IMG/VR virus record: IMGVR_UViG_3300020442_003619
Span: 1-27,343 of that record
From: a virus
Strand: one strand, 5' to 3'
Length of the DNA stretch: 27,343 nt
A program made the translations under genes and the position numbers. The notes below the pieces were generated by a model. The model saw only the letters and a program-made list of their open reading frames with translations, ran no database searches and had not been told where the DNA came from. Shown one piece after another: positions 3,162 to 19,029 of this stretch (its first letter is position 1; each line of letters opens with the position of its first letter).

Positions 3162-3632
3162 ATGTTTAAAGTACCTCATAGTAGAAAACATATAGAAAAA
3201 CATCTTAATAGTAATTATCAAAAAATTAATTACAATAAGTTTAGATGGTGGAGATGGTATCAAGACAAAAATTCACCATTACCATATAAATCGTCTTTTA
3301 GAGATAAAATATTAAATGGTGATTTTGATCCATCTGGGTATCAATGGCAAGCTTGGCTATGTGAGCATATGTTAAATGATTTATTAATAGAGTGTGATAA
3401 TGATTACCAAAAATATTTAGAAAAAGGTAAATTATTACTAGCTCGGAGAAAAAGATTGTTAGAGGATTACGAAAAAGATGAAAATGGGAAATTAGATAAT
3501 TTATTTGCCCATTTTAGAAAATATTTTAAGATAGATAGAAGAGAGGTAGAAGAAGAAGCTTTAAAATGCTGTGGAGAATTGATAGATTTTTATTATATTA
3601 TAGAAGACAAATATGGAAAAATATACACCTAA
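3162..3632 (+). CDS. Conserved-looking phage protein of unknown function
   Basis: The product has 156 residues from the ATG at 3162; a GTG at 3153 would add three residues but overlap the upstream stop. The protein is basic, rich in aromatics near the N-terminus (FRWWRWYQDK, about residues 28-37) and mostly helical, with a YEKDENGKLDN loop in the middle. The C-terminal half is acidic and helical and holds the only paired cysteines (CC, about residue 138). No signal peptide or membrane segment is visible. Its last 20 nt overlap the start of the DpdA-like gene, so the two are probably translationally coupled. That makes a role linked to DNA modification possible, but I do not recognise the family. 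Confidence 0.6.
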   Translation: MFKVPHSRKHIEKHLNSNYQKINYNKFRWWRWYQDKNSPLPYKSSFRDKILNGDFDPSGYQWQAWLCEHMLNDLLIECDNDYQKYLEKGKLLLARRKRLLEDYEKDENGKLDNLFAHFRKYFKIDRREVEEEALKCCGELIDFYYIIEDKYGKIYT

Positions 3633-4449
3633 AATTTCACATGAAGTACCTAGATGCCTTTTAACAGCATCTATAGAATTTAATGATTATGATTATTGTT
3701 TACCTCATCTATTAGATATAGATGAAGAATATAAACAATATTTTATTAATGCTAAAAAATCAGGTCGTTACATTATTATGGATAATTCACTTCATGAATT
3801 AGGTGAAGCATATAAATGGGATAGATTACACCATTGGATTCAAGAATTAAAACCAAATGAATTTATTGTTCCTGATGTTTGGATGGAAGGACATGCTACA
3901 GCAGCTCAAGCAAAATATTGGAAACAACATACTTATCCTAAAGGAACTAAAATTACTGCTGTAGTTCAAGGTAAAGATAAAAATGATGCATATTTATGTG
4001 CCAACCTATTAAATAATCTTGGTTATGATAAATTATGTATTTCATATGGTGCAACTTGGTATAATGATTTTTTCCCACATTTAAATCCAGATATGGGTAA
4101 GGCATTAGGTAGAGTTAGATTTGTTCAAGGGTTATTGAATTTAGACCATTTTAAAGATACTAAATTCCATTTATTAGGATGTTCAATACCTCAAGAATTT
4201 GGATGGTATGATAATCACCCACAAATAGAATCAATTGATACTTCTAACCCAGTTATGGCTGCTTTAGAAGGTGTAGAATATAGTGATAATGGTTTAAATT
4301 CAAAACCAAAAGCTAATATGAATGATTATTTTGATATCGATTTTAAAGATGTTGATTATTGGAAAGTAGCACAAAATGCTCAAAAATTTAGGATAATAAA
4401 CGGATTTAGGCCCTATCCGGAACATACTGGGTCAAATATTAATTTTTAA
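3613..4449 (+). CDS. dpdA: DpdA-like DNA-guanine transglycosylase (TGT superfamily)
   Basis: The product has 278 residues. Queuine tRNA-ribosyltransferase (TGT) enzymes swap guanine for a 7-deazaguanine in tRNA, and phage DpdA relatives do this in DNA. TGT-like landmarks appear in order: MDNSLHELG (about residues 56-64) at the position of the substrate-binding Asp loop, FIVPDVW (about 93-99), TAVVQGKD (about 117-124) matching the TGT VQGG loop, ISYGA, LGCSIP, and ESIDTSNP (about 208-215) matching the nucleophile Asp region. The CxCxxC zinc site of tRNA-type TGT is absent, and the protein is about 100 residues shorter than TGT, as in short phage DpdA forms. Overlap with the upstream gene and queC 5 nt downstream tie it to the deazaguanine pathway. 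The superfamily is likely; DNA rather than tRNA as substrate is inferred. Confidence 0.75.
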   Translation: MEKYTPKISHEVPRCLLTASIEFNDYDYCLPHLLDIDEEYKQYFINAKKSGRYIIMDNSLHELGEAYKWDRLHHWIQELKPNEFIVPDVWMEGHATAAQAKYWKQHTYPKGTKITAVVQGKDKNDAYLCANLLNNLGYDKLCISYGATWYNDFFPHLNPDMGKALGRVRFVQGLLNLDHFKDTKFHLLGCSIPQEFGWYDNHPQIESIDTSNPVMAALEGVEYSDNGLNSKPKANMNDYFDIDFKDVDYWKVAQNAQKFRIINGFRPYPEHTGSNINF

Positions 4450-4454
4450 TTATT

Positions 4455-5249
4455 ATGAATAAACATGCAGTTGTTTCGCTAAGTGGAGGAATGGATAGTT
4501 CCACACTTTTACTCAGAGCGTTATCTGAGTATGATACAGTTACAGCTTTATCTTTTGACTATGGTCAAAAACATAGAGTTGAACTAGAAAGAGCACAGTC
4601 TCTTATTGACTATCTTGCTAAGGAAGGTCATAAAGTAACTTACAAGCAAATCAAGCTTGATGGGTTAGTAGATTTACTTAATTCTGCCCTTGTTCAAGGT
4701 GGGGATGATGTTCCAGAAGGACATTATGAGCAAGATAATATGAAAGAAACAGTAGTACCTAATAGAAATAAAATGTTTGCTTCTATTACTCAAGCAGTAG
4801 CTTTATCTAAAGCAAATGCTACAAAGGAGCAAGTTGATATTTGTTTAGGAATACATGCTGGTGATCATGCTATTTATCCTGATTGTAGACAAGAATTTAG
4901 AGATGCAGATGATGCAGCTTTTAGAATTGGCAATTGGGAGGCTGAAAGAGTAGGATACTTTACACCTTATCTTGATACAGATAAATTAGGTATTTTACAA
5001 AACGGAGAGTATTTATGTGAAATTTTAGAAATCAATTTCGATGATGTCTATTCTAGAACTAATACTAGCTATAAGCCTTTTCCTAGTGGGAACAGTGATT
5101 ATAAGTCTGCTTCGTCTGTTGAACGAATTGAAGCATTTATTGCTTTGGGTAGGAAAGACCCTGTTCAATATGAAGACGAAACTGGTCCAGTGGATTGGGA
5201 AGTAGCAAGAGATTCTGTTGCAAAGGTCTTGGCTGAATATTCAGCCTAA
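4455..5249 (+). CDS. queC: QueC-like 7-deazaguanine synthase lacking the zinc site
   Basis: The product has 264 residues. QueC uses ATP to turn carboxy-deazaguanine (CDG) first into the amide (ADG) and then into the nitrile preQ0. The PP-loop ATP-binding motif SGGMDSS is at residues 10-16, followed by ALSFDYGQKH (31-40), VVPNRNKMF (100-108) and IHAGDHAIYPDCR (133-145), all typical of QueC. The usual C-terminal four-cysteine zinc site is missing: the matching stretch (about 200-230) reads TNTSYKPFPS...SASSVERIEAF, with serine or other residues where cysteines should be. The fold and ATP site look intact. It may have a different product or a partner, as discussed in the findings. The gene follows dpdA by 5 nt and precedes a tRNA pair. 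Confidence 0.9.
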   Translation: MNKHAVVSLSGGMDSSTLLLRALSEYDTVTALSFDYGQKHRVELERAQSLIDYLAKEGHKVTYKQIKLDGLVDLLNSALVQGGDDVPEGHYEQDNMKETVVPNRNKMFASITQAVALSKANATKEQVDICLGIHAGDHAIYPDCRQEFRDADDAAFRIGNWEAERVGYFTPYLDTDKLGILQNGEYLCEILEINFDDVYSRTNTSYKPFPSGNSDYKSASSVERIEAFIALGRKDPVQYEDETGPVDWEVARDSVAKVLAEYSA

Positions 5250-5254
5250 AAGGC

Positions 5255-5327
5255 TGGCTCGTGGTGTAACTGGCAACACGTCTGGTTTTGGTCCAGAAGA
5301 GTCTAGGTTCGATCCCTAGCGAGCCAA
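5255..5327 (+). tRNA. tRNA-Gln (anticodon TTG)
   Basis: A complete cloverleaf can be drawn. The acceptor TGGCTCG/CGAGCCA has 7 bp, with the T1-A72 pair typical of glutamine tRNAs. The D arm is GTGT/ACAC with GG in its loop, the anticodon arm is TCTGG/CCAGA with loop TTTTGGT, and the T arm is CTAGG TTCGATC CCTAG. Discriminator A is at 5327 and no CCA is encoded. The anticodon TTG reads CAA, the glutamine codon strongly preferred in these A/T-rich genes, so the tRNA probably supports phage translation. It starts 5 nt after queC. Confidence 0.93.
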
Positions 5328-5329
5328 CA

Positions 5330-5471
5330 AACCCAGTAGAGCAGTAGGTAGCTCGCTTTGGCTTAACTCGGCGCGAAGTTGAACTTTAACGTGAAGGGAA
5401 ACTTGTAATACAATCGATCGTGAAAAGCAAAGAGGTCAAAGAGGTCACAGGTTCGAGTCCTGTCTGGGTAG
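5330..5471 (+). tRNA. tRNA-like gene with ~70-nt insertion in the anticodon loop
   Basis: The outer parts of a tRNA are clear. The acceptor ACCCAG (5331-5336) pairs with CTGGGT (5464-5469), with an A-A mismatch outside it. The D arm is GAGC/GCTC (5339-5342/5351-5354), the T arm is ACAGG TTCGAGT CCTGT (5447-5463), and a 5-nt variable loop AGGTC sits between 5442 and 5446. D arm, variable loop and unpaired 1-72 position resemble bacterial initiator tRNA. The anticodon stem would be CTTTG (5356-5360) with CAAAG (5437-5441), but 76 nt lie between instead of 7. The insert has a possible hairpin (5372-5393) and ends in a 9-nt tandem repeat (CAAAGAGGT, 5428-5445). No CAT anticodon lies in it. It could be an intron-bearing tRNA, a tRNA-derived RNA or a decaying gene. 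Confidence 0.5.
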
Positions 5472-5486
5472 CTAAATAAATTAAAA

Positions 5487-6305: not shown

Positions 6306-6557
6306 ATGAGTAAAGTACTTTATTTTACTGCCCCTTGGTGTGGACCTTGTAGAATGTTAGGTCCAATCATGGATGGCTTAAGTGGTCAAATTCCATTTTC
6401 AAAAATTGATATTGATAATGATATGGAAACAGCTGCTAAATATAGTGTTAGGAGTGTCCCAACACTACTTAAAATCGATTCTTCTGGTGAGCAAGTAGGC
6501 GATAGATTAGTTGGCTTAGCACAAGCAGAAGAAATTAAAAAATGGTATAATGGGTAA
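6306..6557 (+). CDS. Thioredoxin/glutaredoxin-like protein
   Basis: The product has 83 residues. The redox motif WCGPC is at residues 11-15, right after the first beta strand, and the cis-proline signature SVPT sits at about residues 50-53. A KIDIDND strand-turn lies between them. The length is short for bacterial thioredoxin (about 105) and lacks its first strand and helix, giving a compact form like other phage thioredoxins. It probably reduces disulfides in the cytoplasm, for example to support ribonucleotide reductase or other phage enzymes. Its 3' end overlaps queD by 8 nt, placing it in the deazaguanine operon. Confidence 0.93.
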   Translation: MSKVLYFTAPWCGPCRMLGPIMDGLSGQIPFSKIDIDNDMETAAKYSVRSVPTLLKIDSSGEQVGDRLVGLAQAEEIKKWYNG

Positions 6558-7014
6558 ATTTCAATCAAGTAAAGTTTTTGACGGATTTAGTACAGTGTTT
6601 CGTCAATGGAAAGCTGAAACAACACACTGTAGATTTGTACACGGTTATGGAATTTCATTTAAAGTTTACTTTGAGGGTGAATTAGATGAAAGAAATTGGG
6701 TTTGGGATTTTGGAGGTATGAAAAGAGCTAAAACTAAAATTGATGGTTTAGCTCCTAAAGAATGGATGGATTATATGTTTGACCATACTTTAGTAGTTGC
6801 TGAAGATGATCCTGAATTAAGAGCATTTCAACAAATGGATGTTGCAGGAGTAGCTCAAGTAAGAGTTATTGAAGCAACTGGCGCTGAAAAATTTGCTGAA
6901 TATATTTATAACAAGCTTAATGAGTTTGTACTTACTGAAACTGATGGTAGAGTTAGAGTTACCAAAGTTAAGTTCATGGAACACGGTAAAAATGCAGCTT
7001 ATTATAGCGAATAA
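6550..7014 (+). CDS. queD: QueD-like 6-carboxytetrahydropterin synthase
   Basis: The product has 154 residues. QueD converts 7,8-dihydroneopterin triphosphate to 6-carboxytetrahydropterin, the second step of 7-deazaguanine synthesis. Family signatures are visible: THCRFVHGYG (residues 25-34, the catalytic Cys and His zinc-ligand region), VWDFGGMK (51-58), FDHTLVV (77-83), EATGAEKFAEYIYNKL (108-123, with the conserved Glu at 113) and a C-terminal KFMEHGKNAAYY. In textbook QueD the zinc motif is HGH; here the third position is tyrosine (HGY), and the first His-Cys spacing is compressed. Such a variant seems to be a distinct QueD subgroup, so activity is likely but less certain than for a canonical enzyme. 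It overlaps the thioredoxin gene and is followed by queE. Confidence 0.85.
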   Translation: MGKFQSSKVFDGFSTVFRQWKAETTHCRFVHGYGISFKVYFEGELDERNWVWDFGGMKRAKTKIDGLAPKEWMDYMFDHTLVVAEDDPELRAFQQMDVAGVAQVRVIEATGAEKFAEYIYNKLNEFVLTETDGRVRVTKVKFMEHGKNAAYYSE

Positions 7015-7056: not shown

Positions 7057-7839
7057 ATGCATAAAAAATTAAAAAGGATAGAGGACTATCAAAAGACTCT
7101 AGGGGTGTTAGAACTTTACACCGCAGTACAATCAGAAGGTTCAAGACAAGGTTATCCTACAATTGTTGTTAGGACATCAGGATGCACACATAGATGCTAT
7201 TTTGGAGAAGGTGGATGGTGTGATTCTTGGTATACAAGTATCCATCCAGAAAAAGGTACTTTTTGTTTCCAAGATATTATAGACATGTATGATGCAAATC
7301 CTCATATTAAGGAGATGATGTTGACAGGAGGTTCTCCTACAATGCATCCCGCTTTAGTAAACGAACTTACACATTTTGCGAAAGATAGAGAGATTTTTAT
7401 TACAATTGAAACAGAAGGATCCCATTTTCTGGCTACAGATTATCCTATTAATCTCTTATCTATTAGTCCTAAGTTTAGCAACAGTATACCAGTGGTGGGA
7501 GCTTTAACTCCTCAAGGAGCTGTTGTAGATGAAAAAATGGTTAAAAAACATAATTCAAAAAGATGTAATGTTGAAGCCATTAAACAATCTATTGAGTATC
7601 ATGATGATTATCATATCAAACCAGTATTAGATAAAGAATTATCTATGGTAGGTGAGGTAGAAGAATTCCTAAAAGAATGTAATATCCCAGATCATAAAGT
7701 TTGGGCTATGCCTGCAGGTGATGATAGGGAATCATTAATGGAATCTTATGGACCAGTTATGAATTTCGTTAGAGATAGAGGATGGAGATATACAGGTCGT
7801 TCTCATATTATGGCGTTTAATACTGAACGTTGTGTCTAG
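7057..7839 (+). CDS. queE: QueE-like 7-carboxy-7-deazaguanine synthase (radical SAM)
   Basis: The product has 260 residues. QueE is a radical-SAM enzyme that turns 6-carboxytetrahydropterin into CDG. Visible features are LYTAVQSEG (20-28, the EGE-like start), RTSGC (39-43), the Fe-S cysteines C43, C47 and C55 followed by D56 (WCDSW), LTGGSPTMH (89-97, the SAM-binding GGEP equivalent), IETEGS (117-122), SISPKF (135-140) and a late MPAGDD. Cysteine spacing is CX3CX7C, not the usual CX3CX2C, which fits QueE variants with an expanded cluster loop. It has an ordinary ATG with a 42-nt gap after queD and overlaps a possible 44-aa gene at its end. Confidence 0.92.
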   Translation: MHKKLKRIEDYQKTLGVLELYTAVQSEGSRQGYPTIVVRTSGCTHRCYFGEGGWCDSWYTSIHPEKGTFCFQDIIDMYDANPHIKEMMLTGGSPTMHPALVNELTHFAKDREIFITIETEGSHFLATDYPINLLSISPKFSNSIPVVGALTPQGAVVDEKMVKKHNSKRCNVEAIKQSIEYHDDYHIKPVLDKELSMVGEVEEFLKECNIPDHKVWAMPAGDDRESLMESYGPVMNFVRDRGWRYTGRSHIMAFNTERCV

Positions 7840-8605: not shown

Positions 8606-9295
8606 ATGGCAAGAAAAAAAATACACAATGATTTAGAGGTAGTACAAGAAGGATTTGCAAATGGAGTTGCACCTGGTTTTCCTCTAAGTGATAAAGAAAA
8701 ACAAAAAATGATAAATAAAGCCACTAAAGCCTATGCTAGGTTTTTAGAGGCATTAAAATGTGATTGGCAAAATGATCCTAATTCAGCTGATACACCTCAT
8801 AGAGTAGCTAAAGCCTATGTAAATGATTTATGGGCTGGTAGATATACTGCTATGTCTCCTATTACTTCTTTCCCTTCAGATGGTTATGATGGGATTGTAA
8901 TTGAGAGAAATATTCCACTAACTTCAATGTGCTCACATCACCACCAAACAATTGGAGGAGTTGTTCATATTGGTTATGTAGTTGGGGATAATGGTAGAGT
9001 AATTGGATTATCTAAGTTAAATAGAATAGTAGAATTGTTTGGAAGGAGAGGAGCAATTCAAGAACAACTAACATCAGCAATTCATAATGCTGTAGATAAA
9101 ATTTGTGAAAACAATAAAGGTGTAATTGTTACAGTAGTTGGGACACATAATTGTGTAAGTTGTAGAGGTGTTAAACATCAAGGTGCTGCTATGGTTACTA
9201 CAAAAGCAACTGGGGTGTTTAGAGATAATGATAACTTAGCTAGAAAAGAATTTTTTGATAGTTTAAAAATAAATAATGGGGGACACAATATCTAA
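8606..9295 (+). CDS. folE: GTP cyclohydrolase I
   Basis: The product has 229 residues. It converts GTP to dihydroneopterin triphosphate, the entry step for 7-deazaguanine (and folate) synthesis. Zinc ligands C109 and H112 lie in SMCSHHHQT (107-115), and C183 in THNCVSCRGV (180-189). VIGLSKLNRIVELFGRR (132-148) and QEQLTSAI (152-159) match the family core, and DTPHRVAKAYV (62-72) is the typical N-terminal helix. The protein is close in length to cellular FolE. With queD, queE and queC nearby, its role is almost surely precursor supply for the modified base. It overlaps the phosphoribosyltransferase-like gene by 20 nt. Confidence 0.96.
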   Translation: MARKKIHNDLEVVQEGFANGVAPGFPLSDKEKQKMINKATKAYARFLEALKCDWQNDPNSADTPHRVAKAYVNDLWAGRYTAMSPITSFPSDGYDGIVIERNIPLTSMCSHHHQTIGGVVHIGYVVGDNGRVIGLSKLNRIVELFGRRGAIQEQLTSAIHNAVDKICENNKGVIVTVVGTHNCVSCRGVKHQGAAMVTTKATGVFRDNDNLARKEFFDSLKINNGGHNI

Positions 9296-9665
9296 AGTAT
9301 ACCTTGAATGGTCTGAAATACATGAATGTGTAAACATATTATGTAAAAAAATTATTACTGATTATCCAAATATAGATTCAGTAATGGGTTTACCTAGAGG
9401 AGGTATGATACCAGCAGTATTAATATCACATGAATTAAATATACCCTTTGTACTCCACCCAGGTAAAAATACTTTAGTAGTAGACGATATTAATGATACA
9501 GGTGGAACATTAAGTAAAGCACCTGGTGTTTATTGGGCTACTTTACATCATAAACCTACTTCAAGTTTTCAGCATAATTTTTATGCTAAAGAAGTAGATA
9601 ACCAATGGATTGTGTATCCATGGGAAAGAGAAGATTCAGAAACAATACAAGATTATTTAAAATGA
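9276..9665 (+). CDS. Phosphoribosyltransferase-like protein
   Basis: The product has 129 residues. GLPRGGMIPAVLISHELNIP (38-57) and the PRPP-binding loop TLVVDDINDTGGT (66-78) are the hallmark of type I phosphoribosyltransferases (hypoxanthine/xanthine/orotate types). The protein is short compared with cellular enzymes (about 150-200), with a reduced hood. It could salvage a base into a nucleotide, for example a purine, or act on a deazapurine made by the neighbouring genes; the latter is speculation. The start overlaps folE and the stop overlaps the next gene (ATGA), so it is in the middle of a coupled set. Confidence 0.8.
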   Translation: MGDTISKVYLEWSEIHECVNILCKKIITDYPNIDSVMGLPRGGMIPAVLISHELNIPFVLHPGKNTLVVDDINDTGGTLSKAPGVYWATLHHKPTSSFQHNFYAKEVDNQWIVYPWEREDSETIQDYLK

Positions 9666-10237
9666 GTAAACAATTAACAATTTTTGACGAATTAAATTAC
9701 GAAATTCCTGCACCCCCATCGGTGGCTTTCGTAGATGAAGTTGAAATATTTAATGCCACATTTGGCAAACCAAACAATTATGAAGCAACAATACCAGAAA
9801 AAAAGGAATGGAAGTTCGTATACGACTTTATCCTTGAAGAACTTGAAGAGTATAAGGAAGCTTGCGAAAGAGGAGACATCGTGGAGGTTCTGGACGCTCT
9901 GTGCGATATTGCTTACGTTTCCATTGGGAACGGTACTATGTTACACGGCCTTAAGAGTAAGATATGGCCAGCATATTGTGAAGTACAAGCGTCTAATATG
10001 TCTAAAGCTTGCAAATCTGAAGAAGAAGCCTTGGATACCGTCAGGGTTCGAAGTGAGGAGCAAGGTGAGGCCTGCCATTTTGAAAAACTTGAGGAAGGAA
10101 GGTATATTGTCTACAGAACAAGAGACAAAAAGGTAATGAAATCAATTAATTACTTTAGACCTAATTTATATAAGTTTTTTACTGAGAAAGAAATTGATTC
10201 ATGTAGACCCAATTATAACCCAGGAACAATTATTTAA
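9662..10237 (+). CDS. MazG-like nucleotide pyrophosphohydrolase
   Basis: The product has 191 residues from the ATG at 9662, which overlaps the upstream stop as ATGA; a longer frame from 9605 would run inside the upstream gene. The all-alpha NTP-pyrophosphatase signature is present: EELEEYKEA (59-67) followed by DIVEVLDALCDIAYV (72-86), giving the ExxE...ExxD metal-binding pattern. CEVQASNMSKAC (106-117) is also typical. Such enzymes hydrolyse (d)NTPs to monophosphates, perhaps removing unwanted or modified nucleotides, or altering ppGpp-linked metabolism. The region 9813-10125 uses many more C/G-ending codons than its neighbours, hinting at a separate origin. The polymerase gene starts on its last base. 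Confidence 0.87.
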   Translation: MSKQLTIFDELNYEIPAPPSVAFVDEVEIFNATFGKPNNYEATIPEKKEWKFVYDFILEELEEYKEACERGDIVEVLDALCDIAYVSIGNGTMLHGLKSKIWPAYCEVQASNMSKACKSEEEALDTVRVRSEEQGEACHFEKLEEGRYIVYRTRDKKVMKSINYFRPNLYKFFTEKEIDSCRPNYNPGTII

Positions 10238-11940
10238 TGTATAAAAAGTGTTATACTACTAAGATAAAAGACAATAAATACAAAGTATATCTTTGGGATG
10301 ATATTGGCTATGATGAAATTATTTGGTATAATGCTTCTTATGTAGAAGATAATGAGGGTGATTTAAAAGGAATTAATGGGGAGAAATTAAAGAAAATAAC
10401 AAATTGGGATAGAAATACACCTAATTTACATTTTCATGATATGAAACCTCATCAAAAATATCTTGTTGAAAGATATGGTACTGCAGATGAACCTTCAACA
10501 ACACATAAAGAATTATTTTTTGATATTGAGTGTGAAATTGGAGGTGCCTTAACTGAAGAATACATTGAAAGTGCCCCTATGCCTATTACTTCTATTGCTT
10601 GGTGGGATAAACAAAATGATTGGTGGGCTATATTAATTCTTGATAAAAAAGGAGAATTAAACCACACTAAAGCTAAGAACAAAGAAATTATTCCTTGTAA
10701 AACAGAAAGTGAATTATTAGGTAAATTCCTAGAAAAATTTAGAGAAATTGATCCTGATATTTTAATTGGTTATAATAGTGATTTTTTTGATATACCTTAT
10801 CTATATTACAGAATGTGTAATGTGTTAGGTAAAGATTGGGCAGATCATTTATCACCAATTAATAAAGTTAACGCTAAAAAAAATAATGAATATTTTTTTA
10901 AACGTAATCAATTTGTAGATATAATTGGAGTTGAATCTTTAGACTATATGAGATTACACAAAAAGTATAGTTGGAAGGATGAACCAAGTTGGAAATTAGA
11001 TGCTATTGGAGAAAAGTATGCTGGTGTAAATAAAATAGAATATGAAGGTAATTTAGATCAACTATTTGAAACTGATATTCATAAATTTATTCAGTATAAC
11101 TTTCGTGATGTAGAAATACTAAAATTATTAGATGAAAAACTTCAATATATTGCTTTAACTAAAAACTTATCTCATAAGGGTAAACATAATTACAGTGAAG
11201 TTTATTCTAATAGTGTAACACAGGATGGAGCAATATCCGCTTATTTATTATCTCAAGGAATTATCCCTCCAGCTAGACATGCTAACCCAAAAGCTAAAAA
11301 AGGTTATGCAGGTGGTTATTTATTTTGTCCTAAAGCAGGATTATATAAATACATGTTTGATGAGGATTTAACATCACTGTATCCATCTATAATTATGTCT
11401 TTAAACATAGGTAGAGAAACATTTGTGGGACGTATTATAGATGCAGATGATCGTAATAATAGATTGGGTCTTAACGATTTAAAGAAACGTGATCCTGAGG
11501 AAGAATTATTAGTTAAAAATTCTAAAGATAAATCAACTAGAGTAAATGTTGGTAGATTAGTATCTATGATTGAACAAAATGAATTCTCAATATCAGCTAA
11601 CGGTTCTATTTTTTCTACTGAAAAAGAATCAACACTATCAACTGTATTAAATAAATGGTTTGATGAGAGAGTTGATTATAAAAACAAAATGAAAAAAGCA
11701 TTTAAATCAGGGGACAAAGCAATGGGAGATTATTATTACTTAATGCAATATACAATGAAAATTTTGCTTAATAGTTTATATGGTGCTACAGCTTTACCTG
11801 GATTTAGGTATGGATTACCTGAGTCTATTTTAAGTGAAGCAATTACTTTATCTGGCCACAGAATTATTCAAGAATCTGCTTTATGTGCTAATAAGCATAT
11901 GAACAAAGTAATAAGAAACGAAATTAAATTAGAAATATGA
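10237..11940 (+). CDS. 43A: Family B DNA polymerase, N-terminal part (exonuclease, palm motif A, fingers)
   Basis: The product has 567 residues. The 3'-5' exonuclease motifs are ExoI FFDIECEIGG (94-103), ExoII DILIGYNSDFFD (174-185) and ExoIII YNFRDVEIL (287-295). Polymerase motif A is DLTSLYPSII (377-386) and motif B is KILLNSLYGA (508-517). The frame then ends after about 50 more residues, before motif C (DTD) and the thumb, which are found in a separate gene at 12570. The two products together total 878 residues, close to T4/RB69 gp43 (about 900). Both key active-site aspartates would be supplied only by association of the two chains. Its stop overlaps the next start (ATGA). This is the phage replicase. 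Confidence 0.95.
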   Translation: MYKKCYTTKIKDNKYKVYLWDDIGYDEIIWYNASYVEDNEGDLKGINGEKLKKITNWDRNTPNLHFHDMKPHQKYLVERYGTADEPSTTHKELFFDIECEIGGALTEEYIESAPMPITSIAWWDKQNDWWAILILDKKGELNHTKAKNKEIIPCKTESELLGKFLEKFREIDPDILIGYNSDFFDIPYLYYRMCNVLGKDWADHLSPINKVNAKKNNEYFFKRNQFVDIIGVESLDYMRLHKKYSWKDEPSWKLDAIGEKYAGVNKIEYEGNLDQLFETDIHKFIQYNFRDVEILKLLDEKLQYIALTKNLSHKGKHNYSEVYSNSVTQDGAISAYLLSQGIIPPARHANPKAKKGYAGGYLFCPKAGLYKYMFDEDLTSLYPSIIMSLNIGRETFVGRIIDADDRNNRLGLNDLKKRDPEEELLVKNSKDKSTRVNVGRLVSMIEQNEFSISANGSIFSTEKESTLSTVLNKWFDERVDYKNKMKKAFKSGDKAMGDYYYLMQYTMKILLNSLYGATALPGFRYGLPESILSEAITLSGHRIIQESALCANKHMNKVIRNEIKLEI

Positions 11941-12201: not shown

Positions 12202-12573
12202 ATGAAAACAATAAAAATATCAAATGGGGAGTTATTAGATAGAATTTCTATTCTAGAATTAAAAAAACTTAGAATGGAAGATTCATTTAAGTTAGCAATT
12301 GTAGAAAGAGAATTTCAACAACTTAATCCTAAAATTATTGATTTATTTACTAAAAATGATTCAACACTTCAGGTACTTTATTTGGAGTTATCAGAAGTAA
12401 ATGGTAAATTGTGGGATCTAGAAAATGAAGTAAGAGATAAAAAAATTGGTGATAAAAATTTTATAATTGCATCTAAAAAAATATTTAAACTAAATCAAAC
12501 TAGAAATAAATTAAAAAATGATATTAATATAATTACAGGTAGTGATTATAGAGATGTAAAAGAGTATTCATGA
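12202..12573 (+). CDS. DUF6165-like protein between polymerase halves
   Basis: The product has 123 residues. The start IKISNGELLDRISILELKKLRM (about residues 4-25) matches the GELxDRIxILExK pattern that I associate with DUF6165. Proteins of this family are usually found near sugar and glycosyltransferase genes and have no known biochemical role. The remainder is helical with a coiled-coil tendency (ELSEVNGKLWDLENEVRD, then IFKLNQTRNKLKND). Its usual partners, glycosyltransferases, are present in this phage but about 9 kb away, so finding it inside the polymerase region is odd. The stop overlaps the start of the polymerase C-terminal gene (ATGA). Confidence 0.65.
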   Translation: MKTIKISNGELLDRISILELKKLRMEDSFKLAIVEREFQQLNPKIIDLFTKNDSTLQVLYLELSEVNGKLWDLENEVRDKKIGDKNFIIASKKIFKLNQTRNKLKNDINIITGSDYRDVKEYS

Positions 12574-13505
12574 AACATTTAGAGGAAACACCTTGGTTTA
12601 TTTGTGATAAAGAAGATACAAATTATTGTGCTTATGTGGATACAGACTCAAATTATTTTAATGCTGAACCAATATTAAAACATTTATTTCCTAACTTTGA
12701 AAGTTTATCAGATGAAGAAAAAGATAGTAATTTAGAAAAGGTAGCTTTAGCATACCAAGATATTATTACAGAAGATTATAATAGGTTAGCTCGTGAGACC
12801 TTTAACGTCACGAATCACAGACTTGAAATGAAAACTGAATGTGTTATTCGTTCAGCTTATTTCAGGGCAACAAGAAGATATGCACAATGGATTACAAAAC
12901 AAGAAGGTATAAACAAAGAAGTCTTGGATATCAAAGGTCTAGAGTTTATGAAGGCAAACTTTCCACCTATTTTGGGGGAATTTTTCAACGATATCCTTCA
13001 ACAAGTTCTAAAGGGTGAGGAAAAGAGTAATATAATAAAACAAATAAAGGATTTTAAATCTAAAATAATTAATGGAACAATACCCTTAACTAAATTAGGT
13101 AATCCTACAGCAGTTAAAAAATTACAAAAATATTCTGGACATTCAGCTAGAGCAGGAGAATTATTTACTGAAATATTAAAAGGAGCACCTGCACCAGTTC
13201 GTGCAGCTATTCGTTATAATGATTTACTTAAGTTATGGAAATTAGATAGAAAATATAATCTTATTACTATGGCGGATAAAGTAAAATGGATTTATTTAAA
13301 AGATAATCCATATAAAATAGAGGCATTAGCATTTTTTGATTATGATATGCCAGATAAAATTAAAGAATTTTTAGAAAATTATGCTGATAGACAAAAAGTA
13401 TTTGATTCTATATTATTAAATAAATTAGAGGGATTTTTTAGTGATTTACAATGGAATTTAGATTTAAATCCTTATATAAATGCATTTGATTCCTTTGAAG
13501 TATAA
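12570..13505 (+). CDS. 43B: Family B DNA polymerase, C-terminal part (motif C, thumb)
   Basis: The product has 311 residues. Motif C, AYVDTDSNYF, is at residues 21-30 with catalytic D24 and D26. The stretch RLEMKTECVIRSAYFRATRRYAQ (about 84-106) and DIKGLEFMK (about 119-127) match the palm and thumb-proximal KKRY and KxxGxE regions of T4-type polymerases. The rest forms the thumb. The final residues (INAFDSFEV) contain a hydrophobic-acidic-aromatic tail like the clamp-binding C-terminus of gp43. The first 16 residues continue naturally from the end of the upstream fragment, so little if anything is lost at the break. The ATG overlaps the previous stop. Bases 12785-13020 have distinctly higher G+C codon choice. 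Confidence 0.93.
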   Translation: MKHLEETPWFICDKEDTNYCAYVDTDSNYFNAEPILKHLFPNFESLSDEEKDSNLEKVALAYQDIITEDYNRLARETFNVTNHRLEMKTECVIRSAYFRATRRYAQWITKQEGINKEVLDIKGLEFMKANFPPILGEFFNDILQQVLKGEEKSNIIKQIKDFKSKIINGTIPLTKLGNPTAVKKLQKYSGHSARAGELFTEILKGAPAPVRAAIRYNDLLKLWKLDRKYNLITMADKVKWIYLKDNPYKIEALAFFDYDMPDKIKEFLENYADRQKVFDSILLNKLEGFFSDLQWNLDLNPYINAFDSFEV

Positions 13506-15060: not shown

Positions 15061-15483
15061 ATGAGTACATTAGAAATCTTTGAAAGGCATATAAGTCCTT
15101 TCGACATCCTTTTTAGGAACCACTTTAAATCTGACAGCACATTTCAACCTGTTGGACAATTCAAACAACCACATCCCGTTAATATTTTTTACAATGATGC
15201 AGGACTTCATTTTGAAGTTGCTTGTACTGGTCTTACTAAAAAAGACATTGTAATAGATATAGAGGGAGATATTTTAAAAATAAGTTATAAAAAACCAGTA
15301 GATGAAGAAATTCACCCAGGAATGATTCATCATGGTTTATCTAAAAAATCATTTGATTTAAGGTATAAAATAGCACCTAAATTTAATTTGGGGGATATTG
15401 ATGCATCTTTAGCAAATGGTAAATTAGATATTTTTATACCTTTAGCTGAAGAAGCTAAACCAAAATCAATTAAGATTAAATAA
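15061..15483 (+). CDS. Hsp20/alpha-crystallin small heat shock protein
   Basis: The product has 140 residues. The alpha-crystallin domain occupies about residues 40-130: VNIFYNDAGLHFEVACTGLTKKDI (about 40-63), ISYKKP, RYKIAPKFNLGDIDASLANGKLDIFIP (about 101-127, matching the conserved A-x-G-V-L hallmark as ANGKLDI) and a C-terminal IKIK like the IXI oligomer motif. The N-terminal arm is short. These are ATP-independent holdases that keep unfolding proteins soluble. Small heat shock proteins are frequent in T4-like phages of photosynthetic and marine hosts. Located 350 nt upstream of groES-groEL, it forms part of a chaperone block. Confidence 0.93.
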   Translation: MSTLEIFERHISPFDILFRNHFKSDSTFQPVGQFKQPHPVNIFYNDAGLHFEVACTGLTKKDIVIDIEGDILKISYKKPVDEEIHPGMIHHGLSKKSFDLRYKIAPKFNLGDIDASLANGKLDIFIPLAEEAKPKSIKIK

Positions 15484-15494
15484 AAGTTTTACTG

Positions 15495-15522
15495 AAAAAA
15501 CGTGTCCTAGCAAATGTTTTTT
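15495..15522 (+). terminator. Terminator-like hairpin after hsp20
   Basis: AAAAAACGT (15495-15503) can pair with ATGTTTTTT (15514-15522), including one G-T wobble, around a 10-nt loop. It lies 12 nt after the hsp20 stop. The A/T-rich stem with a run of T on the 3' side could terminate in either direction. The terminal T run is the start of the next promoter-like element, the same arrangement as at 2954-2995. Confidence 0.5.
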
Positions 15523-15530
15523 CGTATATT
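15521..15530 (+). promoter_or_regulatory. Promoter-like TTCGTATATT 6 nt before ATG
   Basis: TTCGTATATT then GTCGTT then ATG at 15537. It would give a leaderless transcript covering the 101-aa gene and the groES-groEL pair behind it, separating chaperonin expression from hsp20. Confidence 0.6.
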
Positions 15531-15536
15531 GTCGTT

Positions 15537-15842
15537 ATGAAAAAAAGCAAACAACTTACAATCATTGAGGATCCAAAATTGGAACCTTACTTTATAACAA
15601 AAGATGATCATTGTTATACTGTACAAGAACGTATTAAGCCTAATGCCGACCATTTTAGAACAAAAGGTAAAGGAAAGGAATATAGTAAACCCCAAACTTA
15701 CCACCCTAATTTAGGTAGTGCCTTAGAATCTATTTCAAAAATGCAATTGCATACGAAAGAAAATTACACATCTATTGATGATGTAATAGAAAATTACAGA
15801 AAAATTGAATCAAACATTAAACAATACATTAAACAATTATGA
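15537..15842 (+). CDS. 101-aa protein of unknown function upstream of groES
   Basis: The product has 101 residues. It is basic in the first two thirds (KKSKQLTIIEDPKLEP, RIKPNADHFRTKGKGKEYSK) with a central LGSALESISKMQL helix and a helical, charged C-terminus (SIDDVIENYRKIESNIKQYIKQL). No membrane segment, signal peptide or known motif is evident. It begins directly at a promoter-like element and its stop overlaps the groES start (ATGA), so it leads the chaperonin operon and might be regulatory. That is inference from position only. Confidence 0.65.
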   Translation: MKKSKQLTIIEDPKLEPYFITKDDHCYTVQERIKPNADHFRTKGKGKEYSKPQTYHPNLGSALESISKMQLHTKENYTSIDDVIENYRKIESNIKQYIKQL

Positions 15843-16195
15843 ATTTAGAAGCATTATTTGATGCAGTTATAGTTAAACCTATTGAAAATGAGGAAGTTAC
15901 TTATGGGGGTATTATTGTACCTGATATGGGTAAGGAATTAAATGAAGTAGGAGAAGTTATAGCTGTTGGTCCTGGAAAATATACACATTCAGGAGAATTT
16001 TTAGAAACTATTATTAAGGTAGGAGATAGAGTTGTCTTACCAACTATGGGATTCACTAAGCTACAATTTGATGGTGATGAATATTATGTTGGTCCTGAGA
16101 ATCAAATCTTAGCCAAGGTAAAAGTGCCAGTAGAAGATATACTAGCAGAAACAGAAGTAAGTGATATTGATAAAGAACATTTAACTGATATTTAA
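15839..16195 (+). CDS. groES: Co-chaperonin GroES (Cpn10)
   Basis: The product has 118 residues. DAVIVKPIENEEVTYGGIIVPD (about 8-29) contains the mobile loop with the hydrophobic IIV tripeptide that docks onto GroEL. GEVIAVGPGKY (about 38-48) and VGDRVVLPTMGF (about 61-72) match the family core, and the final strand is YYVGPENQILAKV. The protein exceeds the usual 97 residues because of an acidic C-terminal tail of about 20 residues (from PVEDILAETEVS on). It caps the folding chamber of GroEL. ATGA overlap with the upstream gene and 1 nt to groEL show a tight operon. Confidence 0.95.
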   Translation: MNLEALFDAVIVKPIENEEVTYGGIIVPDMGKELNEVGEVIAVGPGKYTHSGEFLETIIKVGDRVVLPTMGFTKLQFDGDEYYVGPENQILAKVKVPVEDILAETEVSDIDKEHLTDI

Positions 16196-16196
16196 T

Positions 16197-17837
16197 ATGA
16201 AAAAAGTAGAATTTGGTAAAGAAGCCAGACAAAATTTAATTAAAGGAATTGATATTTTAGCTGATGCTGTAGTTTCAACTTTAGGGCCTAACGGTAGAAA
16301 TGTTGTTATAGGTAAAGGTATTGTTGAAGCTCCTATGAGCACAAAAGATGGTGTTACAGTAGCTAGAAATATTGTATTAAAAGAAACTAATCAAGAACTT
16401 GGTGTTCAATTAGTTAAATATGCTGCTATTAAAACAGCAGATAGAGCAGGAGATGGTACAACAACATCTACCCTATTAGCAAGAGAAATTATTAAAAATG
16501 GTTTAACAGCTCTAGATAATAAAGAAAATGCTGTTCAAATTAAAAGACAAGTTGATAAAGCAGTTAAAGAAGTTGTTTCTCAATTAAAAGAAATGTCTGA
16601 AGATATTAGTGAGGAAAACCAATTAGAACAAATTGCTACTGTTTCAGCTAATAATGATCAAGAAGTAGGTAAATTAATTTCTACTGCTGTTGATAAAGTA
16701 GGACAACAAGGTGTTGTACATATTGAATCTTCTAGAACTGCAGATAATTATATTGAAACTGTAGAAGGTATGCAATTTGCTAGAGGTTACAAATCACCTT
16801 ATTTTGTTACTGATAATAATAATATGACTTCAGTACTTGAAAATCCTGCTATTCTTATTGTTGATGGTAGATTATCATCAGTTAAAGAGTTACTTCCAAT
16901 TTTAGAAGCGGTTGGTGCACAAGGAAAATCATTACTAATTATAGCTGAAGATATTGATAATGAAGCTTTAGCAACTCTTATTGTTAATAAGATGAGAGGT
17001 ACATTAAGTGTTTGTGCTGTAAAAGCTCCTGATTTTGGAGACAGAAGAAAACTTATCCTAGAAGATATAGCTATTACTACAGGTGGTACTGTATTTAGTA
17101 AAGATAAGGGAATGAAGTTAGATAAATTCTCTTGGGATTGGTTTGGTGAAGCTAGAGTAGTTACTGTAGAAAAAGAACAAACTACTATAGTTGATGGTAA
17201 AGGTGAAGTAGAAAAGATTGAAGCAAGAATTGAAGAAATTAAAAATCAACTTGATAAGTCTAAAACACCATACGAAACAGAACAATTACAAAATAGATTA
17301 GCTAAATTTGTAGGTGGAGTAGCTATTATTCATGTAGGTGGATTTACTGAAACTGAAATGAATGAAAGAAAAGATAGAGTTGATGATTCATTACACGCTA
17401 CTAAAGCTGCTATTGAAGAAGGTGTTCTTCCAGGGGGTGGAGTTGCTTTACTTTATGCTAGAGAAGCTATTAAAGATAAAAGTAATACTGGTGCCCAAAT
17501 AGTTTATAAAGCATGTGGTAAACCATTTGAACAAATATTACTAAATGCTGGATATGATAAAACTGAAGCACAACTATTAGGTAAATATAAGTTAGTTGAT
17601 TCAGGTAATGATCATTGGGCGGGTATTCATGTAGATGAAGGTAGTGTAATTGACTTTAAAGAAGCAGGTATTATTGATCCTACTAAAGTTACTAGATTAG
17701 CATTACAAAATGCTGCTTCAGTAGCAGGTACAGTTTTATTAACAGAATGTACTATTATTGAAGATAAAGATAGTGATGAATTTAAAGATAGAGGTTACGA
17801 TAATAATGGAGTTCCTCAACCATCGGTTGGAATGTAA
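16197..17837 (+). CDS. groEL: Chaperonin GroEL (Cpn60)
   Basis: The product has 546 residues, a normal full length. ATPase residues are in place: STLGPNGRNVVI (about 27-38), KDGVTVA (with the D52 equivalent), AGDGTTTSTLLA (the D87 equivalent) and RVDDSLHATKAAIEEGVLPGGGVALL (the D398 equivalent). The apical domain carries hydrophobic client/GroES-binding stretches. The C-terminus ends VPQPSVGM without the usual GGM repeat tail that lines the cavity. So it should be an active ATP-driven folding machine working with the GroES just upstream. Many large phages use host GroEL; carrying an own pair suggests a demanding virion protein such as the major capsid protein. Host origin by transfer is likely. 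Confidence 0.97.
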   Translation: MKKVEFGKEARQNLIKGIDILADAVVSTLGPNGRNVVIGKGIVEAPMSTKDGVTVARNIVLKETNQELGVQLVKYAAIKTADRAGDGTTTSTLLAREIIKNGLTALDNKENAVQIKRQVDKAVKEVVSQLKEMSEDISEENQLEQIATVSANNDQEVGKLISTAVDKVGQQGVVHIESSRTADNYIETVEGMQFARGYKSPYFVTDNNNMTSVLENPAILIVDGRLSSVKELLPILEAVGAQGKSLLIIAEDIDNEALATLIVNKMRGTLSVCAVKAPDFGDRRKLILEDIAITTGGTVFSKDKGMKLDKFSWDWFGEARVVTVEKEQTTIVDGKGEVEKIEARIEEIKNQLDKSKTPYETEQLQNRLAKFVGGVAIIHVGGFTETEMNERKDRVDDSLHATKAAIEEGVLPGGGVALLYAREAIKDKSNTGAQIVYKACGKPFEQILLNAGYDKTEAQLLGKYKLVDSGNDHWAGIHVDEGSVIDFKEAGIIDPTKVTRLALQNAASVAGTVLLTECTIIEDKDSDEFKDRGYDNNGVPQPSVGM

Positions 17838-17845
17838 TAAATAAT

Positions 17846-17855
17846 TTCGTATATT
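17846..17855 (+). promoter_or_regulatory. Promoter-like TTCGTATATT 6 nt before ATG
   Basis: TTCGTATATT followed by ATAGTT then ATG at 17862, in the only gap (24 nt) between groEL and the clamp-loader operon. A TTGG lies about 20 nt upstream, where a -33 element would be. It would make a leaderless mRNA for the 88-aa gene and the clamp-loader genes behind it. Confidence 0.6.
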
Positions 17856-17861
17856 ATAGTT

Positions 17862-18128
17862 ATGTCAAAAAAGAAGGTTATAGAAGAGAATATATTAATT
17901 GCTCGCAGAGTACCACCAGGAGACAAGTGGAGACTTGTTGCTAATGAGCCTGATGGTCAAGTCCATAATACGCTTACTGATACCTTGGAAGCATATATGG
18001 TGAAAACTGGCTTTAAGGGGGAGTATAGGTTAGCTCCCCTGAAAAGTGAGTTATATGCTATTTCTACAACTGAAGAAGAAATAAAACCAGAACCAATTAA
18101 ACAATATTCTATTTATGGAGAATACTAA
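17862..18128 (+). CDS. 88-aa protein of unknown function upstream of clamp loader
   Basis: The product has 88 residues. It is a small soluble protein with a basic start (MSKKKVIEENILIARRVPPGDKW), a central polar region with LTDTLEAYMVKTGF (about 38-51) and a C-terminus rich in E, P and I. No known motif is visible. It begins at a promoter-like element and overlaps the clamp-loader gene by 14 nt, so it leads that operon. The short length, position and translational coupling suggest a replication or regulatory helper, but the sequence gives no direct sign of that. Confidence 0.65.
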   Translation: MSKKKVIEENILIARRVPPGDKWRLVANEPDGQVHNTLTDTLEAYMVKTGFKGEYRLAPLKSELYAISTTEEEIKPEPIKQYSIYGEY

Positions 18129-19029
18129 TCATAGTTTATTAGTTGAAAAATACAGACCTAATGTACTAGAAAATTATGTAGGTAATAAGAATATTAAATC
18201 TGTAATATCAAAATATCTAGAACAAAATGATATCCAGAATTTTATATTTTATGGGCCTGCTGGTACAGGAAAAACAACATTAGCTAAATTAATAGTTAAT
18301 AATTTAGATTGTGATTATGTTTATATAAATGCTAGTGATGAAAGAGGTATTGAAACAATTAGAGATAAAGTATCTAGTTTTGCTTCTGTAGCATCATTTA
18401 AACCAATTAAAGTAGTTATTTTAGATGAAGCGGATTTTCTTACTATTCAAGCTCAAGCTTCATTACGTAATATAATAGAAACATTCTCCAGAACTACTAG
18501 ATTTATTTTGACCTGTAATTATGTAGAACGAATAATAGATCCACTACAATCAAGATGTCAAGTATTAAAAGTAGTTCCACCTACTAAAAAAATTACGGCA
18601 CTTCATTTGTTAAAAATATTAAATCAAGAAAATATTAGACATACAGATGAAGATATAATTAGTATAGTAAACCAATTCTATCCTGATTTAAGGAAGTGTA
18701 TTAATGCTATTCAAGCTAATACTGTTGATTCACAACTTAAATTAGATAAATCTGTTTTATTTTCATCTAATTATGTTAATAAAGTAATAAATGAATTAGG
18801 CAAAGATAAACCTAATTTTAAAAATATAAGGCAAATAATTGCTGATGCTAATACAGATGATTATGAAGAGTTATTCCGAGAATTATATGATAGTGCAAGT
18901 GAATATATGCCTGGTAAAGAAGGTACAGTAGCTATTTTAGTTAATGACCATCAATACAAAGCAAATTTCCGAATAGATAAGGAAATTAATATAATGAGTT
19001 TAATTAATAATTTAATAAATAATAAATAA
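18115..19029 (+). CDS. 44: Clamp loader large subunit (gp44/RFC-like AAA+ ATPase)
   Basis: The product has 304 residues. Walker A GPAGTGKTT is at 47-55, Walker B VILDEAD at 101-107, the sensor I region ILTCNYVERI at 131-140 and the SRC arginine-finger motif at 146-148, in the order expected of RFC-small/gp44 proteins. LVEKYRPNVLENYVG at the N-terminus (about 9-23) is also typical. The subunits form a pentamer with gp62 that opens the sliding clamp and loads it on primed DNA. gp62 is encoded two genes downstream. The length matches T4 gp44 (319). Full conservation of ATPase motifs indicates activity. Confidence 0.95.
   Translation: MENTNHSLLVEKYRPNVLENYVGNKNIKSVISKYLEQNDIQNFIFYGPAGTGKTTLAKLIVNNLDCDYVYINASDERGIETIRDKVSSFASVASFKPIKVVILDEADFLTIQAQASLRNIIETFSRTTRFILTCNYVERIIDPLQSRCQVLKVVPPTKKITALHLLKILNQENIRHTDEDIISIVNQFYPDLRKCINAIQANTVDSQLKLDKSVLFSSNYVNKVINELGKDKPNFKNIRQIIADANTDDYEELFRELYDSASEYMPGKEGTVAILVNDHQYKANFRIDKEINIMSLINNLINNK

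Follow-up and report, generated by a model that had tools for sequence, protein, structure and literature searches.

A QueC subfamily lacking the Cys4 zinc site, found in phages and several bacteria, that very probably still makes preQ0

Introduction

Mutagenesis of E. coli QueC has defined a catalytic signature of four residues (Y35, R99, Y131 and Y189), the Y189A mutant being inactive, and a 2026 survey still counts the Cys4 motif among the hallmarks of the enzyme (PMC13329287). QueC-like enzymes with a conjugating activity are also known (PMC13329287, PMC13279940), of which the protein-conjugating defence enzymes Cap9 and QatC are members of the QueC family. Close known relatives among phage proteins include the Rosebush type, from Mycobacterium and Arthrobacter phages. 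Hutinet and co-workers remarked that none of the phage QueCs had yet been tested individually (PMC6884629). Our search of the literature found no description of a QueC without a Cys4 zinc site. A precedent of a more general kind is provided by the 'Cys-minus' paralogs FolE2 and DksA2, in which a member of a zinc-dependent family has lost the ligands and keeps its activity, as we propose for the QueC described here.

The window, that is the whole stretch of DNA analysed, comprises 27,343 nt of the marine phage record IMGVR_UViG_3300020442_003619 (positions 1 to 27,343) and encodes a QueC-family protein in which all four zinc ligands are replaced. Our preferred reading, to which we give a probability of roughly 0.8, is that this protein belongs to a subfamily without the Cys4 site that still converts CDG to preQ0, and that a DpdA-like enzyme inserts the base in phage DNA.

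Results and Discussion

The gene at 4455-5249 (plus strand) encodes a product of 264 aa which matches PF06508 in a profile search at 2.5e-38 (132 bits, against a cut-off of 22), and its AlphaFold model (pLDDT 83.5; a metal-free prediction) keeps the QueC fold, with the solved QueC structures 2pg3 and 3bl5 as top Foldseek matches. In common with canonical QueC (E. coli, B. subtilis 3BL5) it has the SGGxDS ATP pyrophosphatase loop (S10-GGMDS-S16, 4482-4502, plus strand), which is invariant in the alignment of relatives, as well as YxQxHxxE at 36-43 (Y36, Q38, H40 and E43), VPxRN at 101-105 (V101, P102, R104 and N105), YPDC at 141-144, the lysine K177 and the essential tyrosine Y206, and it shares with canonical QueC the pathway neighbours QueD, QueE and FolE. 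The whole E. coli catalytic signature is retained, as Y36, R104, Y141 and Y206. The protein departs from canonical QueC in its longer C-terminal tail, in its score against TIGR00364 (132.1 bits, under the equivalog cut-off of 150.3 bits) and above all in the zinc site. Its C-terminal stretch from T202 to R224, RTNTSYKPFPSGNSDYKSASSVERIEAF, begins with T202-N-T-S205-Y206 (5058-5072, plus strand), where S205 occupies the position of the first Cys ligand and Y206 is the essential Tyr, and continues through KPFPSGN to S214-D215-Y-K-S218-A-S-S221-V-E-R224 (5094-5126, plus strand), where D215, S218 and S221 occupy ligand positions 2 to 4. The canonical C(x)8CxxCxxC motif is therefore absent. Set against 16 further phage QueCs in an alignment, the window protein has S, D, S and S in columns that read CCCC in 14 of them, and the two exceptions are both members of a second zinc-site-free clade discussed below. 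The first-pass annotation of this DNA had located a QueC with all four zinc cysteines replaced by 'serine or another residue' within a conserved frame that includes the SGGMDSS loop. Alignment with phage QueCs bears this out at the right coordinates, the replacements being three Ser and one Asp, and adds that the remaining catalytic motifs are kept too.

The loss of the Cys4 site extends well beyond one phage: dozens of phages and several bacteria share it as a fixed trait. A scan of viral contigs with the window QueC gave at least 600 relatives, and the best 80 of these together with the isolated Flavobacterium phage immuto (L081), whose QueC is 68% identical to that of the window, form a set of 81 related loci, all of which contain the stretch RTNTSYKP...SDYKSASSVER with minor changes at most. 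Among 93 distinct coding sequences from phage contigs, immuto and cellular genomes, the bacterial members of which are 51-57% identical to the window QueC, S205, D215, S218 and S221 are invariant (93/93), as is S214. Both TCN and AGY codons are used at each of the serine sites 205, 218 and 221. These two families of serine codons are not interchangeable by one silent change, and their joint use at sites that are invariant in all 93 sequences argues that the replaced ligand residues are under strong purifying selection and rules out decay or a pseudogene. The recurrence of the stretch in 81 further loci together with the same invariance likewise excludes chance or assembly error. It had been proposed from the window alone that so orderly a loss of cysteines reflects selection rather than decay, and the codon comparison agrees. 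One other apparent case of ligand loss, L198, was set aside, as its C-terminus bears no relation to the motif and a frameshift or truncation is probable.

The enzyme might still bind a metal through other residues, its zinc dependence having moved to Asp215 and serines together with His40, His90, His134 or His138, and D215 and all four of these histidines are indeed invariant in the alignment. However, the same histidines are present in the Cys4-keeping relatives ItsyBitsy and Sonali, in the motifs GHY and VHxGDHAVYPDC, and so are not newly acquired ligands, and serine is in general chemistry a poor ligand for zinc. We therefore consider a moved metal site improbable and reject the conserved histidines as the basis of a new one. 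The Rosebush-type QueCs, about 36% identical to the window protein, likewise share with it GHYxxxNM, VHxGDHAVYPDC and a DPxxY C-terminal tail, but keep the full Cys4 site. With all four ligands lost and no replacement metal site evident, the window protein is apparently a previously undescribed, zinc-independent variant of QueC. The canonical zinc knuckle lies beside the essential Tyr and probably serves to hold the Tyr loop; in the zinc-site-free enzyme S205, D215, S218 and S221, along with Y216 (invariant among relatives) and K217 (nearly so), would probably hold the Tyr206 loop by hydrogen bonds in place of zinc. The route from CDG to preQ0 would still comprise the two ATP-dependent steps of other QueCs.

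The strongest indication of the product comes from bacteria. In a scan of bacterial and archaeal genomes, QueC of this zinc-site-free type turned up in Cysteiniphilum, Facilibium, Fangia, two other Thiotrichales and Legionella gresilensis, while some further matches are short MAG contigs that may be phage. We examined nine cellular genomes, from Fastidiosibacteraceae, other Thiotrichales and Legionella gresilensis, and in all nine the zinc-site-free protein is the only full-length QueC, the extra weak PF06508 matches that we examined being asparagine synthetase-like or MnmA-like. This differs from FolE2 and DksA2, which as a rule are additional copies switched on when zinc is low. Tgt, QueF, QueD and QueA are present in all nine genomes and QueE in each of the five that were searched for it, and QueD and QueE adjoin the zinc-site-free queC in several. 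A DpdA-like protein was found in none of the nine, a set without a positive control for that search. The best Tgt frame of Legionella gresilensis (G007:C9:17695-18807) contains one in-frame TAG. In a gammaproteobacterial MAG (L114:65-1761), a complete queF, whose product matches QueF at 7.7e-34 and 2.7e-18, precedes the zinc-site-free queC, with 2 bases between the two genes. QueF is the preQ0 reductase and acts on the nitrile of preQ0. To judge by genome context and the logic of the pathway, a zinc-site-free protein that is the sole QueC alongside QueF must supply the preQ0 for queuosine in these nine genomes, although the presence of the genes does not by itself prove that queuosine is made.

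These bacteria bear directly on the suggestion of the first-pass annotation that the enzyme stops at the amide. Without zinc, only the first step would take place, ADG would be released and the phage DNA would carry dADG, a base that does occur in phage DNA (PMC6884629, PMC8306585); that the zinc site is not only gone but its absence conserved is in keeping with such a change. Yet the same type of protein is the only QueC in bacteria whose QueF needs the nitrile, and in the MAG the two genes lie side by side, so that we think it unlikely that ADG is the product and do not adopt it as the main reading. The phage enzyme and its bacterial relatives are 51-57% identical and might not make the same product. 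The S-D-S-S loop would in that case be a changed active-site element peculiar to the phage enzymes, either ADG or an amide of CDG would be released, and the DNA of these marine phages would contain a 7-deazaguanine other than dPreQ0, which we judge to have little likelihood. Very probably, in our reading of these sequences, the zinc-site-free QueC still makes preQ0, its normal product.

Phages with a reported DNA base allow a second comparison. Phage Iggy, whose QueC has no zinc site, reportedly has dPreQ0 in its DNA (Olsen 2023, cited in both PMC11008142 and PMC11945000), whereas Campylobacter phage CPt10 reportedly has all of its G as dADG (100%; PMC8306585). In our alignment the CPt10 QueC keeps all four zinc cysteines. 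As far as the second-hand accounts of Iggy go, zinc-site status therefore does not predict the base, which argues further against ADG as the product here and against the annotated expectation that loss of the site gives a different DNA base. P. aeruginosa, the host of Iggy, has its own QueC, and the dPreQ0 of Iggy is thus weak evidence by itself and no proof that the Iggy QueC is active. The zinc motif would appear to be a poor guide to the base in phage DNA, and predictions that use it call for caution.

Iggy belongs to the second clade of phage QueCs without all four cysteines, which also includes the proteins of PCCM_PaP002, Rhizobium N17, MMDA13, R5C, Pan1, Baskent_P4_1 and HD01. These Iggy/Rhizobium/MMDA13-type QueCs resemble the window protein in lacking the ligands and in lying beside QueE, QueD and FolE, and in some phages of the clade a queF or QueF-like gene is annotated close to queC. 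They differ in forming a separate clade and in the residues that stand in for the cysteines (S or A, T or V, N or D, and N, T or S at the four columns), which marks the loss of the zinc site as independent. In a QueC tree built by a quick method with the motif columns left out, zinc-site-free QueCs stand in two places at least, and the starred branches require the state of the site to have changed no fewer than two times. The clade of the window protein (19 rows, support 100) branches from within the Cys4 phage QueCs. If a zinc-site-free protein that serves as sole QueC has indeed arisen at least twice, then the zinc of QueC would be structural and replaceable, and these proteins would form a natural set for asking what role zinc plays in the enzyme.

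The surroundings of the gene are those of a base-synthesis pathway. Related phage loci have in common a cassette of a DpdA-like gene, QueC, thioredoxin, QueD, QueE, FolE, a phosphoribosyltransferase, MazG and DNA polymerase. QueD was counted in 61, QueE in 58 and FolE in 35 of the 81 related loci, many of which are partial, and this is the linkage known from canonical QueC. The phage enzyme would thus complete a FolE-QueD-QueE-QueC route to preQ0. Immediately upstream, the gene at 3613-4449 (plus strand) encodes a DpdA-like transglycosylase, which probably carries out the exchange of bases in DNA for this pathway. A Pfam profile search of its product gave no match, but its AlphaFold model (pLDDT 94) has a TGT-like barrel fold, with Foldseek matches to the TGT structures 2pot (2.1e-7) and 2ash and to the solved DNA preQ0 insertase DpdA, 7ui4 (8.0e-7). 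A homolog was found in 47 of the 81 related loci, and in all seven phage records searched whole, immuto included, the DpdA-like gene occurs together with QueD, from which it is most likely that the pathway ends in DNA. On the strength of the model, the 3613-4449 product most likely inserts a 7-deazaguanine into phage DNA, and the base would most likely be dPreQ0. A literature search on DpdL found nothing relevant.

This context also bears on whether the protein might resemble Cap9 and QatC, which attach CDG to proteins, and use some amine in place of ammonia, so that a new base or a conjugated protein would result. Cap9 ranks fourth among the fold matches of the window model, and the two defence enzymes share its fold and ATP-dependent chemistry. 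Both, however, retain the Cys4 site and are found in CBASS IV or qat operons rather than a que cassette, whereas the QueD-QueE-DpdA context here is one of base synthesis and the bacterial relatives belong to queuosine pathways. We regard such a conjugating activity as very improbable, and CDG to preQ0 conversion remains our preferred reading.

Other members of the cassette have peculiarities of their own. QueD (6-carboxytetrahydropterin synthase; 6550-7014, plus strand; PF01242 at 7.9e-15, phrog_2389) has a variant ligand region, with Phe at the canonical first zinc His (FSTVFRQW) and HGY for HGH, and the His preceding the catalytic Cys (THC) may substitute as a ligand. This type of QueD is common to Thiotrichales QueDs and several phages with a Cys4 QueC (phi38:2, L164), and the reverse pairing, of a zinc-site-free QueC with an HGH QueD, is found in Baskent_P4_1. 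The changes in QueD and QueC are therefore uncoupled, and we rejected the idea of a coordinated zinc-sparing cassette. In QueE (7057-7839, plus strand; TIGR03365 at 2.3e-13, phrog_2076 at 3.9e-46) the cluster motif is CX3CX7C (CTHRCYFGEGGWC) where CX3CX2C is usual, and a similar stretch occurs in L109 and L117. FolE (GTP cyclohydrolase I) lies at 8606-9295 (plus strand; PF01227 at 4.2e-42), followed by a purine phosphoribosyltransferase-like gene at 9276-9665 (plus strand; PF00156 at 1.2e-8), which is found in 37 of the 81 related loci and whose product may salvage the guanine released by DpdA-like base exchange.

Between QueC and QueD, a tRNA-Gln at 5255-5328 is followed at 5331-5472 by a second tRNA-like sequence, possibly an interrupted tRNA, in which acceptor and T-arm halves can be seen by eye around a long middle; ARAGORN and Rfam did not report a tRNA in this interval. 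Further along the window, a family B DNA polymerase is apparently split into two ORFs (10237-11940 and 12570-13505), which are separated by two small ones, and the region 15061-19029 holds genes that, judged from their translations, are Hsp20-, GroES-, GroEL- and clamp-loader-like.
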